In this document: positions 3,087-9,877 of the stretch, piece after piece
How positions within the stretch are numbered: position 1 is the first letter of the stretch
Layout of the letters: each line of letters starts with the position of its first letter
NCBI GenBank assembly: GCA_903898855.1
Contig: CAIUHB010000244.1
Coordinates: 1-9,877 of the forward strand
Length of the DNA: 9,877 bases
Reading direction: 5' to 3'
Origin: an uncultured Actinomycetes bacterium
Lineage (GTDB): Bacteria; Actinomycetota; Actinomycetes; Nanopelagicales; Nanopelagicaceae
Notes under the pieces: generated by a model
What the model saw: the letters and a program-made list of their open reading frames with translations, nothing else
The model's database searches: none
What the model was told of the DNA's origin: nothing
Program-made: the position numbers and the translations under genes

Positions 3087-4493
3087 ATGAACAATTACTT
3101 AGGTAAATCTGAATCAGGAGAGCGAAGCAAGAAGCGACTACTTTTTATTGGAATCGCCGCTTTGCTCGGTTCATTGATATCTATTCCACACGCAAACGCT
3201 GTAGTTGTGCCAACTGCTCCAACAAATATCTCCGTCACTGCCGCCGCCGGCGCCTAAGTCGTGAGTTGGCAGCCACCTCAATACGACAGCAACAGTGTTA
3301 CTGCATATTCAATTGAATATTCATCCACGGGCTCAGCTCCTTGGACTGTAGCCAGCAACTCAATTGCAGCATCAGCACGTAACTACACAATTTCTTCCCT
3401 TAATCCAGGTACTTATTATTTTGTTCGAATGACCGCGCTCAATGGCGCGAGCGCAAGTCCTTACGGGTATCCATGGACCCCGATCTATAGCACCAGCACC
3501 ACCAATCGCGATGCGAACAGCAAAATCGTTTATGACTCCGGTGGCGGATTAGGTGGCAGTGATTCAGCCTCTGTTGTTCAGTCAGCAATGACCGCTGGCG
3601 GATATGGATTTACGCGCGTGAAATACCATATGGAATACAAGCAAAGCTCTGCACTTGTATATGCAGATGCCGATATGGCCAAGTGGGATACATCAACAAT
3701 TCCTTATAACTCACAAACTTCCTACGGTGCATCAATATCAAGTTTGCGTGTTCCATCCTCGGCGGCTGCTGACTTATTCCAAGTCCAAACTAACGTTAAC
3801 GACCTCACCGTGGTCTCAAGTCTCTCCACGTTAAATGTTTCAAATAAAGTTGGCCGTTTGGAAATCTGGCCTTATAACTATGCCCAAGGAGTCAGCGGTC
3901 TTTCATATCCCGGAAATGGCTCAAATTACGATCTTGATGATCAATATATTTCCGGTGGATATTACGGTTCTTTTCAGGTGCACGATGTGACTGATTCCAA
4001 CACGATTCTTGCCTGGAACGATCACGCAAATGGCGTTACTTCCGATGTTGGAATCGGAACAATGAGTGGTGGCAATCCCGACTGGACTTTTTGTGGAGCA
4101 CAAACGCCTCTTTGTACTTCCTGGTCGGCATTTCATCTCTATATTTACATCAACATTCCAGCAACACCCACAAATCCAAATAGTTCGTCAGTCTCGCTAA
4201 ACGTCGCAGCTTCAACATCATTCCGAACAGCTACGTCGATTGTGGCCAACACCTCCCTCAGCGGAAAAGTAACTTTTTATGCAAATGGCAAGCGGATTCC
4301 AGGATGCATATCTCTTCCCACTGTCACCAACAATGGCGTTAACCCAGCTACCTATTCCGCAACCTGCTTCTGGCGCCCATCGGTTCATGGGCAGAACAAC
4401 GTAAGCGCCACTTTCACTCCATATGTCGGACCCACTTCTCGGGGAGCTTCGCTGACCCCAATCACTACGATCTCCCGCACAACCACTCGCTAA
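3087..4493 (+). pseudogene. Secreted fibronectin-III / lectin-like surface protein, interrupted by an in-frame stop
   Basis: From ATG 3087 the frame encodes a Lys/Arg-rich start, a hydrophobic core and a probable signal peptidase site (IPHANA before VVVPTAP), then the first strand of a fibronectin type III domain (PTAPTNISVTAAAGA). A TAA at 3255-3257 stops it after 56 codons, yet the same frame goes on for 411 more (VVSWQPPQYDSNSVTAYSIE), completing that FnIII domain. The stop therefore looks like one substitution, such as CAA or AAA to TAA. After FnIII (to about 3500) comes a beta-rich region of about 210 residues with LEIWPYNYA, YGSFQVHD and DVGIGTMSGGNPDWTF, resembling, from memory, a domain of secreted planctomycete/verrucomicrobial sialate O-acetylesterase-like proteins. 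The last 100 residues form a module shared with the gene at 5541. The 3' part could only be made alone from GTG 3261, which lacks a ribosome site and would begin inside FnIII. A sequencing error is possible. Confidence 0.75.
4191..4490 (+). other. Shared C-terminal surface module, copy 1
   Basis: The last 100 codons of the interrupted FnIII protein contain GKVTFYANGKRIPGC, a second Cys in ATCFWRPSVHG, then SATFTP and a terminal RTTTR. These line up with the end of the protein at 5541-6995. The fold is probably Ig-like, and the two Cys could form a disulfide. The function is unknown; an envelope-anchoring or sorting role is only a guess. Confidence 0.7.
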
Positions 4494-4562: not shown

Positions 4563-4638
4563 GTGGGCGTAGCTCAGCTGGTAGAGCACTCGGTTGTGGT
4601 CCGAGATGTCGCGGGTTCGAGCCCCGTCGCTCACCCCA
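4563..4638 (+). tRNA. tRNA-His (anticodon GTG)
   Basis: A full cloverleaf is visible. The acceptor strands GTGGGCG (4563-4569) and CGCTCAC (4628-4634) pair with one G-U, the anticodon arm is CTCGG TTGTGGT CCGAG with anticodon GTG, and the T loop has GGTTCGAGCC. C at 4635 can pair with G at 4562, the extra G(-1):C73 pair that identifies histidine tRNA. CCA is encoded at 4636-4638. It lies between a secreted-protein gene and ppa. Confidence 0.97.
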
Positions 4639-5212: not shown

Positions 5213-6995
<1,783 letters not shown>

Positions 6996-7153: not shown

Positions 7154-7226
7154 GCGTTGTTAGCTCAGTTGGTAGAGCAGGTGACTCTTAATCACCGGGT
7201 CGGGGGTTCGAGTCCCTCACAACGCA
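7154..7226 (+). tRNA. tRNA-Lys (anticodon CTT)
   Basis: The acceptor strands GCGTTGT (7154-7160) and ACAACGC (7219-7225) pair perfectly, with discriminator A at 7226. The D arm has AGCTCAGTTGGTAGAGC, the anticodon arm is GGTGA CTCTTAA TCACC with anticodon CTT, and the T arm contains GGGGTTCGAGTCCC. No CCA is encoded; CTT follows, so CCA must be added after transcription, unlike the tRNA-His in this window. Confidence 0.97.
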
Positions 7227-7238
7227 CTTATAGACAGG

Positions 7239-7329: not shown

Positions 7330-7338
7330 ATGTCGCTA

Positions 7339-8520
7339 ATGTCCAATTCGACAGACGACATCTACAGCGACGATCCAAGTGATTCGACGTCAATTCCAGC
7401 AAAGCGAAAACTCTCGGCGTTGCTAGCTTCCATAACACTTCTACTCGGTGGCGCGTATTTTGTGCAGACAACCCTCGCCGCGAACTTCTCTATCAATTCG
7501 GGACAGATTGAGTTCGGCCAAGGTGCGACTGCGACAACGGCATGCACCGGTTTAAATACTTTGACAGTTACTCCGAGCGCAGCGTTTGTTAATGCATCGG
7601 GTAGTGGCTCCCATTATTTTTCATCTTTTACAATCTCAAATATTCCGAATTCTTGCTACGGTGACGATTTCACTATCAAAGCCTATGGAAGCAGCGGCAA
7701 CACCCCACTTTCGATTTTTAATACAAACTCAACCACCGCGGTTATCTACGACAACGGCGGAACATTCGAAGCCGGAGCAGGCAGTGCAGGTCTAACGGTC
7801 AGTGGGAGCTCTGGGTCGTTTACGACTACCTTCACTTCTCCAGTCGCATTGGCATCTACCGTCTTTAAGCTGACGCTAGAAAGTGGACCACACACAGCAA
7901 GCGCTTACAACGTCGGCGACGTCGGTCCAGGCGGCGGAATCATTTTTTATAAAGACCTAGCAGGGTTTAGTTGTGGCCCTACATTCAGCTCTACCGGCTC
8001 TCCTTCGGGGGGCCTATGCAATTATCTTGAAGTTGCTCCGAATACTTGGACTTCGCCTTCGGATGCAACAACTGTTTTATTGGGCAATCGGAATGATGCA
8101 GCACAAATTAGCGGGGTACGTCTTGATTCATCCGTCGTTTTCGATCCAAATGATGTTGGACTTGGCTATAAAAATTCACTCGCTTTTCGCGCTGACTCCA
8201 GAGCTATAGCTAATACTGGAATTAGATTTGTTCGAGATTACAACGGCGGAGCATTAAGCGATTGGTATGTTCCAGACTCTACAGAGTTGAACATACTTGT
8301 TTATTGGTCAAAGGGATTGACGCCTGTTCTAAACGCAAGATCTACCTCGTCTGCCGCCTTAATTAACGGCAACTTTAATTCAGGTTATTATTACTACAGC
8401 TCCTCACAGACTGGGTCCAATCCCTTTGGCGCTTACATCCAAAATTTTGGCAATGGAGGAGTCGTAACGAATCAATGGAGCGATGTGGGCATGCGTGTGC
8501 GGCCTATTAGAGCTTTCTAA
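7339..8520 (+). CDS. Exported protein with DUF1566/Lcl-like C-terminal domain
   Basis: From ATG 7339 the product has 393 residues (396 from ATG 7330). A polar, Asp/Ser-rich stretch of about 20 residues and AKRK precede one hydrophobic segment (about 25-47, ending TTLAANF), so it is either a long signal peptide or a signal anchor. Residues 50-183 form a Ser/Thr/Gly-rich beta domain with one Cys near each end (C69, C106). From about 189 the sequence VGDVGPGGGIIFY opens the second domain, with C212 and C227 and EVAPNTW. The end matches the DUF1566/Lcl pattern: DWYVPDSTELNIL, YYYSSSQ, AYIQNF and MRVRPIRAF. That family has a C-type-lectin-like fold and is found on secreted bacterial proteins; its ligand here is unknown. 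The gene is preceded by tRNA-Lys and its own candidate promoter. Confidence 0.87.
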   Translation: MSNSTDDIYSDDPSDSTSIPAKRKLSALLASITLLLGGAYFVQTTLAANFSINSGQIEFGQGATATTACTGLNTLTVTPSAAFVNASGSGSHYFSSFTISNIPNSCYGDDFTIKAYGSSGNTPLSIFNTNSTTAVIYDNGGTFEAGAGSAGLTVSGSSGSFTTTFTSPVALASTVFKLTLESGPHTASAYNVGDVGPGGGIIFYKDLAGFSCGPTFSSTGSPSGGLCNYLEVAPNTWTSPSDATTVLLGNRNDAAQISGVRLDSSVVFDPNDVGLGYKNSLAFRADSRAIANTGIRFVRDYNGGALSDWYVPDSTELNILVYWSKGLTPVLNARSTSSAALINGNFNSGYYYYSSSQTGSNPFGAYIQNFGNGGVVTNQWSDVGMRVRPIRAF

Positions 8521-8566: not shown

Positions 8567-8638
8567 CAAATACTCGTTGATGAACAAATGTCGAAATAAA
8601 ATTCACTAAAGTTTAGGCATCTGCAATTGAGACACGAC

Positions 8639-8647
8639 CGGAGGAGG
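8639..8647 (+). promoter_or_regulatory. Purine-rich ribosome site of the beta-helix gene
   Basis: CGGAGGAGG-type sequence ends 12 nt before ATG 8660, somewhat far but the only strong site nearby. The frame is open to TTG 8627, upstream of this site, which would add an Arg-rich stretch before the signal peptide and is not favoured. Confidence 0.5.
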
Positions 8648-8659
8648 AATAGAGCCAAG

Positions 8660-9877
8660 ATGAAGAGTTTTATTAGAGTTATTACTTCAATCAATCTAAT
8701 ACTTACATTCGTAACCTTAATGCCGGCTTCTGCCCACGCTGCCCCTTTAAATTTCTTCGTAGCCACAAATGGTTCTGACAAAAACCCCGGCACACTTCAA
8801 AAGCCATTTAAGACCATTCAGCACTGCGTCTCGTCGCGACCTGGCAATTCCACCTGCAATGTACGTGCTGGAAATTACTTTGAAACGGTAGTGCCGACAA
8901 GTAGCGGATTAACTGTTCAAAGTTACAACAACGAAAAAGTGACTTTAGATAGCAGAAAATCAGTAACCGGCTTCAAGCAATACGCTCCAAACAAATATGT
9001 TGCAAAAGTTACTTTGCCGTTGGGCGACGACAATCAAATATTCTTTAATGACACTAGCGGAATCCTTGCCATGTGGCCTAATACGACAGATTTACTTCAC
9101 CCGAACTGGGAGCGAATTCCCAATGAGATTTCGCCTGAAAACCTATTGACTGATTCTCAAATACCTTCGGGCCTCTCGGGGACCGGAAGCATCAAGTTTT
9201 TCAGTGGGGATGATGCCTGGACATCACAAACCGGATCTTTCGATAATCCTCAGTCCGGCAACTTACATTTCACCTTAGACGGTGCCAGCACCGGAATTTA
9301 TATAACTCCAGCAAAAAATGGTCTCTACTATCTATTTAATAACATTGCTTTTCTTGATACCGCATATGAATGGTTTTACAACCCGACAGAATCCAAATTA
9401 TTTGTTCAGATTCCGAGTGGTTCAAATATCAATAACTTTAAAATCTCCTATAAATCTAAAGAAACACTTGTCGATTTAAGAGGTTCAGCCCATGTAACAA
9501 TAAAGAATATTTCCTTATTCGGCGGCACGATTGCTATGGATGAGCAAAGTCAAGGAAATTTAATCGATGGAATCAATGCCAACTATGTCTCGAATAACAC
9601 ACGTTCTTATGACAACACAACGACGCATAACTGGGCGCATGGGAATTCTACTATTGTGCGCTTATAACCAAAAGGACAATCCAAATCCAGGTGACGGGCC
9701 TACAAATTCACAGATTAGCTACAACGATATTTTCAATTTCGGCACAATGAGTGTCGACATTGGTGGGGTTTATCTCAGTGGTTCTGTTAATACCGGACTC
9801 GTGATTGATCATAATTGGATTCATAGTTCGGCTTATCCTTCGCAAATTCCAATCTCTCAAAGCATCCCGAACACAAC
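8660..9877 (+). pseudogene. Secreted right-handed parallel beta-helix protein, frameshifted and cut by window edge
   Basis: The product begins with a signal peptide (MKSFIRVITSINLILTF, cleavage after SAHA), followed by FFVATNGSDKNPGTLQKPFK, the opening of DUF1565/pectate-lyase-type parallel beta-helix proteins; many such proteins act on or bind polysaccharides. The first frame ends at TAA 9665-9667, but the frame starting at 9645 reads on as ILLLCAYNQKDNPNPGDGPT and stays open to the window edge with beta-helix-like repeats (SQISYNDIFNFG, GLVIDHNWIHSS). Removing one G from the GGG at 9641-9643 joins the two as THNWAHGILLLCAYNQKD, so a +1 insertion there is the simplest explanation. It may be a real mutation, phase variation or a sequencing error. 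No catalytic residues can be assigned from the visible part. Confidence 0.8.

Follow-up and report, generated by a model that had tools for sequence, protein, structure and literature searches.

Two secreted proteins encoded in the window (the whole stretch of 9,877 nucleotides analysed here) carry the same C-terminal end on unlike N-terminal parts, and the locus raises the question of what such a constant end on variable proteins is for. The initial annotation took it for what a sorting or anchoring signal would look like. On balance, we lean towards reading this end, hereafter the module, as a C-terminal sorting or docking domain through which a group of small freshwater actinobacteria displays proteins on the surface independently of sortase.

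Two module genes in one window

Behind minus-strand genes that we take to be pstC, pstA and part of pstB, the window carries an oligoribonuclease gene, the first module gene (3087–4493), tRNA-His (4563–4638), ppa, a P-II-like gene, the second module gene (5541–6995), tRNA-Lys (CTT; 7154–7227), a gene for a secreted protein with an Lcl_C C-terminus (7330–8520) and a parallel beta-helix-type gene; the features that have coordinates in this sentence are on the plus strand. The P-II-like gene and the second module gene share 11 bases, at the 3′-end of the former. Gene names other than those backed by Pfam and tRNA matches are our presumption. The beta-helix-type gene (8627–9877) has a DUF1565-like start; its frame stops at 9667, yet similar protein sequence seems to run on in a different frame as far as the window end, which suggests a frame break.

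The first module gene encodes a secreted protein with a signal-like start, an fn3 domain and a C-terminal module (4185–4490), while the product of the second, of 484 amino acids, joins a signal-like start and an unrelated N-terminal part to a module at 6699–6992. Both C-termini contain GKVTF[YK]AN, IPGC, a second Cys, HG, SATFTP and RTxxR. The two modules match each other (BLASTP E 5e-14) and the N-terminal parts do not (no BLASTP match at E < 0.01), so that the initial annotation was right both about the shared end and about the difference in front of it. It had also stated that neither end bears an LPXTG motif or membrane anchor, and reading both sequences confirms this, with no hydrophobic helix in either. 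It gave the basic tail as RT-x-x-R or RT-x-R; the first form is correct, but the second is not, since both tails read RT-x-x-R (ISRTTTR-stop at 4490 and PRTGKR-stop at 6992).

An in-frame TAA at 3255–3257 stops the frame that starts at 3087 after 56 codons. We therefore place the first module at the C-terminus of the open frame 3258–4493 and treat the first gene as interrupted as sequenced: the module that had been assigned to the protein at 3087 is present, but the frame that starts there is broken before it. The pieces on either side of the stop were analysed separately, with the sequence left unmended. A relative in genome G030 has an open frame across the corresponding region, and the TAA may mark a pseudogene, a variant or an assembly error.

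The module is a predicted Ig-like domain outside named families

The module is about 98 residues long, with R-[TS]-x-x-R at its extreme C-terminus. Structure prediction gave an Ig-like beta-sandwich with two conserved cysteines, and a fold search placed it among common Ig/FnIII-like sandwiches; the 50 listed rows of that search contain no structures of type IX C-terminal domains (CTDs), which bears neither for nor against a relation to them. Each isolated module was compared with Pfam and NCBIfam, and no model matched at E ≤ 1, in agreement with the earlier statement that no named family could be recognised; likewise, a 59-sequence module profile found no relative among PDB sequences at E ≤ 1. 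Big_3_5 (PF16640) shares the Ig-like fold and matches an earlier repeat of the 5541 protein weakly, under its cut-off; as Pfam matched neither isolated module at E ≤ 1, membership in this family was dropped.

Two protein searches with the module returned 7 and 9 proteins, whose N-terminal parts include LamG and Gly-rich domains. An alignment scan found one matching species-genome record, an actinobacterial MAG whose locus adds a subtilase, and single-module scans of viral contigs and genome contigs found no close relatives. In a 12-row alignment, both Cys and both Arg of the tail are among the invariant columns.

Searching 201 genomes of the order with a tail-bearing profile gave matches in 76; the richest genome had 17. 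Hits were opened in 38 of these, 21 of which have terminal modules and 17 internal ones only. The other 38 were counted as non-terminal: their listed hits end before the tail, in open reading frames mostly of 300–350 amino acids, and the hits of some of these genomes are absent from the listing. A class-wide search, whose sample is partly the order itself, matched 38 of 394 genomes, 17 of them with a best E above 1e-8; two matches opened outside the order set (G338 and G280) are both internal.

Terminal position and the arginine tail

Because including the tail would bias a profile towards C-terminal hits, the last ~17 residues were cut from the alignment before terminality was tested. The resulting tail-less profile (alignment A3, 58 rows) was run on the 15 genomes with at least 3 hits in the order-wide search, except G050 and G056 (three each); those of their hits that were opened later are internal. 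The genome search gave 132 rows, all within stretches that were then scanned locally, and the local scan yielded 134 hits at E ≤ 1e-4, with at most 17 in any genome. As many as 120 of the 134 end 14–26 residues before the stop codon (mode 18), in genomes that had been picked with the tail-bearing model and with a core alignment built from that model's hits. Three hits run off contigs and 11 are internal: five extra copies in proteins that also end with a module, three in one contig-cut protein and three within a conserved protein of ~310 amino acids. The initial annotation had proposed a profile search for secreted proteins sharing this end alone, and many such proteins with diverse N-terminal parts were indeed found.

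An RxxxR string lies within 4 amino acids of the stop in 112 of the 120 terminal hits, and seven of the other eight still end in Arg. The form is R[TSAV]xxR in 98 of the 112 tails, and Arg is the very last residue in 91. Neighbouring ORFs of at least 150 amino acids end in RxxxR in 5 of 296 cases, one of which is actually a module gene. Counted from the final Arg (position 0), the 112 tails have V or I at –7 (88), R at –4, T or S at –3 (78) and G, T, N or S at –2 (102). Single-module genomes have degenerate tails (RVTER, EQRR, TARP, VIPRG, RVVRRS).

Related Ig domains are internal only in the 17 other opened genomes of the order, where they sit in large repeat proteins and in a conserved exported protein of ~310–350 amino acids. 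Repeat proteins of ~1,500–4,100 amino acids with internal module relatives were seen at loci L205, L207, L211, L140, L141 and L121, in genomes without tailed terminal copies. The ~310–350-residue protein (for example L129:728-1666, minus strand) joins an internal module relative to a ~200-residue domain without known family, and two members gave no Pfam match above cut-off; orthologues occur in G087, G091, G101, G109, G138, G140, G031, G054 and G338, near other conserved exported genes. It was dropped as a candidate module partner, as it occurs in genomes without terminal modules. The initial annotation had set against a sorting role a module that lies internally or at random positions, or that belongs to a common Ig-like family showing no C-terminal preference; most copies are terminal, but the fold is a common one and internal relatives exist.

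The module is joined to variable cargo

The proteins in front of the module were analysed for 116 terminal hits from a first pass with the tailed model (20 genomes and the window). By a simple rule of charge and hydrophobicity, a signal-like start is present in 95 of the 100 with a visible 5′-end and absent from five, one of which is the window piece after the stop; in 16 the start lies outside the stretch. N-terminal parts of at least 30 amino acids (n = 113) fall into 56 clusters at E < 1e-10 and half coverage. Single linkage at E < 1e-5 merges 95 of the 113 into one group, which we attribute to shared repeats. Pfam domains in the 56 representatives are of surface type: Gly_rich_2 (19), LamG (9), fn3 (6), He_PIG (4), LRR_5 (2), and S8, PA14 and Lcl_C (one each).

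Similar modules are found on dissimilar cargo. Two neighbouring genes of G095 have modules 70% identical and N-terminal parts without similarity at E < 1e-5, and the module of the S8 protease is 55% identical to that of a G194 protein whose N-terminal part shows no similarity. One G030 protein joins a part like the window's first protein to a repeat like that of the second. The ppa contigs of G085, G109, G184 and G194 carry module genes with N-terminal parts unrelated to those of the window. The region near ppa and the tRNA genes may be a hot spot, as the window, G030, G085, G109, G184 and G194 keep different surface-protein genes there.

A neighbouring family and a SipW-type cluster accompany terminal modules

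The family of the window protein 7330–8520, here named P, recurs beside module genes in 13 of 122 stretches, from 10 genomes and the window. In 12 of the 13 the P gene is the next ORF to the module gene (in the window, tRNA-Lys lies between them), and several P/module gene pairs are separated by a few bases or overlap. The other 109 module-gene stretches, many of them short, have no P gene, and most module-rich genomes carry their module genes away from the P cluster described below. P proteins combine a short leader and a hydrophobic segment with a conserved exported domain that contains EFGQG and two Cys, and their C-termini vary: nothing, Lcl_C (as in the window), LamG or PF03736. Lcl_C and LamG thus occur both at P C-termini and as cargo of module proteins. 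P is a second modular system, with a constant N-terminal exported domain and variable C-terminal domains, the mirror image of the C-terminal module. A module protein of G129 has a leader that resembles the P type by eye, with no profile match. Homologues of 7330–8520 number 395, of which 120 were listed, one of them named as a Candidatus Nanopelagicaceae protein. Together with the actinobacterial MAG, this name suggests that the window stems from a freshwater actinobacterium of the Nanopelagicales type.

P genes belong to a conserved cluster in the order F3-P-P-(P)-F1-F2-F6-F5-F4, complete or cut by the stretch end in 16 of the 20 stretches fetched for it, with a partial variant in a seventeenth. 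In G018, G021, G028 and G059 the cluster ends in a P gene that is followed by the genome's only module hit. The genes adjoining the cluster (response regulator, Wzy_C-like, MotB-plug-like) vary by genome among stretches L185–L199 and L202. F1 is a signal peptidase of the SipW/archaeal/SEC11 type that also matches SEC11A/C and has conserved Ser, His and Asp, which we take to be the catalytic residues. All eight F1 members match TIGR02228 at E ≤ 0.001 and seven of the eight match NF046067 (SipW); the first member scores 48.7 against the TIGR02228 cut-off of 51.85 and 17.7 against the 190 of SipW. Judged by these profile matches, F1 is a kind of SipW-type peptidase and not the SipW equivalog. F2 appears by eye to be a multi-pass membrane protein, with a weak MG2 match in 2 of 9 members and no other family, and F6 is a collagen-repeat protein (one member tested: PF01391, E 1e-13).

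Among the 201 genomes of the order, P is present in 20 of the 21 with terminal modules versus 18 of the 180 others, strong F2 hits (E < 1e-50) in 19/21 versus 9/180 and strong F1 hits (E < 1e-40) in 19/21 versus 10/180 (38, 28 and 29 genomes in total; weaker-only hits in 25 further genomes for F2 and 24 for F1 were left uncounted). Fisher P-values are 4e-16 for P, 7e-18 for F2 and 2e-17 for F1, computed with kinship ignored over genomes that are not independent. Two genomes, G030 and G001, have terminal modules with no strong F1 or F2 hit; G001, which holds only 0.9 Mb, also has no P hit. Conversely, P occurs with no terminal module in 18 genomes and F2 in nine, so the cluster does not depend on the module. 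When those 18 P genomes and six more were searched again with a better model, 22 hits were found in 10 of the 24, none of them terminal. P is present in nearly all genomes with tailed modules, and 18 P genomes have no terminal ones; tailed modules therefore go with P, and not vice versa.

By ppa identity, used as a marker of kinship, several genomes without module hits stand at 93% and the cluster-bearing G018, G021 and G028 at 73%, which by that single marker suggests a patchy presence of modules. The marker was dropped for placing the window itself, ppa being too conserved.

As to the co-occurring processing enzyme that the initial annotation had suggested looking for, a linked signal-peptidase cluster does exist, with F1 in 19/21, but F1 is of the kind that cuts N-terminal signals; we therefore do not take it for an enzyme acting on the tail.

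Comparison with known surface-sorting systems

In the type IX secretion system, as described in the excerpted text of PMC4804311, an Ig-like CTD and its last residues direct cargo, the last strand and residues being important in RgpB. The module resembles these domains as a predicted Ig-like sandwich at the C-terminus of varied exported cargo, but theirs are Bacteroidota with an outer membrane, whereas the module is found in actinobacteria. Actinobacteria are monoderm. Neither module matches any model at E ≤ 1 in NCBIfam, a library that presumably includes the type IX CTD models. By analogy, the module appears to work like a type IX CTD in design and is not a member of that family.

LPXTG signals are likewise C-terminal, sit on variable surface proteins and have a basic end. 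However, the final 45 residues of the 120 terminal relatives contain no hydrophobic helix (mean Kyte-Doolittle value over 17-residue windows at most 1.57), and an LPxTG/LAxTG string occurs in the last 60 residues of one of the 120, inside the domain and not before a helix. Sortase (PF04203) was detected in three of the 15 module-rich genomes and in none of 15 that lack module hits, genome completeness not being given. LPXTG/sortase membership was dropped on these grounds. The PEP-CTERM, GlyGly-CTERM and MYXO-CTERM tags, handled by exosortase, rhombosortase and myxosortase, respectively, combine a short motif, a hydrophobic helix and a basic cluster, according to the excerpts of PMC11980579; they share with the module a C-terminal position and basic last residues, but the module is a folded domain with no helix. 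Exosortase (PF09721) was found in 0 of the 21 terminal-module genomes, with a positive Methanocaldococcus control, and PEP-CTERM membership was dropped as well.

A parallel to the cluster, by peptidase type and gene order, is the tapA-sipW-tasA operon of Bacillus, with donor-strand assembly of TasA as outlined in the excerpted PMC9674648. There too exported subunits are encoded beside a SipW-type signal peptidase. P proteins differ, however, in that six of them gave no TasA/M73 (camelysin) match in Pfam, the best PDB match for P had E 0.96, and a fold search with a weak P model (pLDDT 69.5) was led by the Lcl_C part and had no TasA-like fold among its rows; the cluster also adds F2, the collagen-repeat F6 and F3–F5. 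The passages of PMC9674648 on this operon describe no variable cargo with a C-terminal docking domain. Donor-strand assembly for the module is thus only a suggestion by comparison.

A candidate address domain for surface display

Fixed position, fixed end, variable cargo and linkage to an export cluster together point to a C-terminal address domain. Cargo of many kinds would be exported through its N-terminal signal, which is signal-like by sequence. The C-terminal domain would then fold as an Ig-like sandwich, possibly closed by a disulfide between the two conserved Cys, leaving a free basic tail, R-[TS]-x-x-R-COOH, after its last strand. A membrane assembly or a structure at the surface, made of P proteins and the linked cluster (F1, F2, F6, F3–F5), would recognise the domain and its exposed end, perhaps through strand complementation as in TasA fibres; we infer this recognition step from co-occurrence and gene adjacency. 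Swapping the N-terminal part while keeping the end would change what the cell displays. The sorting or anchoring signal of the initial annotation is thus favoured by secreted proteins that share only this end, diverse N-terminal parts, sortase-poor genomes and the linked cluster, while the common Ig fold, the internal relatives and the N-terminal type of the peptidase keep this support partial.

More tentatively, these genes may constitute an undescribed sortase-independent display system of monoderm bacteria, in which an Ig-like domain ending in R-[TS]-x-x-R would direct as many as 17 different cargo proteins in one genome to a fibre or membrane assembly (P, F2, F6) linked to a SipW-type peptidase; the module and the type IX CTD would then be independent counterparts.

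The module could instead be the substrate signal of a new sortase-like transpeptidase, encoded in the cluster (F2, or F7) or elsewhere, that would cut near the tail and link the cargo covalently to the wall, a lipid or a glycan. Recognition of a terminus would suit the two conserved Arg and the almost constant distance from the free end, F2 co-occurs in 19/21, and the one F7 protein tested matches PF04932 (Wzy_C, E 8e-12), an O-antigen-ligase-like family; F7 adjoins F3 in 5 of the 20 cluster stretches and lies near P genes in a sixth. We nevertheless consider such an enzyme unlikely, given the sortase and exosortase counts above, an F2 with no recognisable catalytic family, an F7 not seen at the other cluster stretches and residues before the tail of which only the hydrophobic –7 and –9 are fixed.

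Somewhat less probable still is passive binding of the module to wall or an anionic polymer, with the basic tail providing charge and no dedicated partner. The surface-type cargo would suit this, as would further basic residues besides the two defining Arg (K or R at –5 in 50 and K at –1 in 21 of the 112 tails), but charge does not need Arg at the very last position or Ser/Thr at –3, and does not explain the association with P genes. Least probable is that adhesins end by chance in an ordinary Ig-like domain serving as stalk or cap, with no sorting role: the common Ig/FnIII-like fold and the internal relatives in 17 other genomes are in its favour, but 120/134 terminal hits, the same tail on 112/120 and diverse cargo including a subtilase speak against it.

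Among the matches listed in the open-licence PMC literature, none deals with such a module or with surface sorting in this lineage, or gives an account of sortase-free surface placement in Nanopelagicales-type actinobacteria.

Freshwater actinobacteria of the Nanopelagicales type are among the commonest bacteria in lakes. With the module, candidate surface proteins of these cells become readable from sequence, and the linked cluster supplies candidate partners, so that questions of display, grazing and phage receptors become testable. The module would be a second Ig-like C-terminal address domain, outside Bacteroidota.
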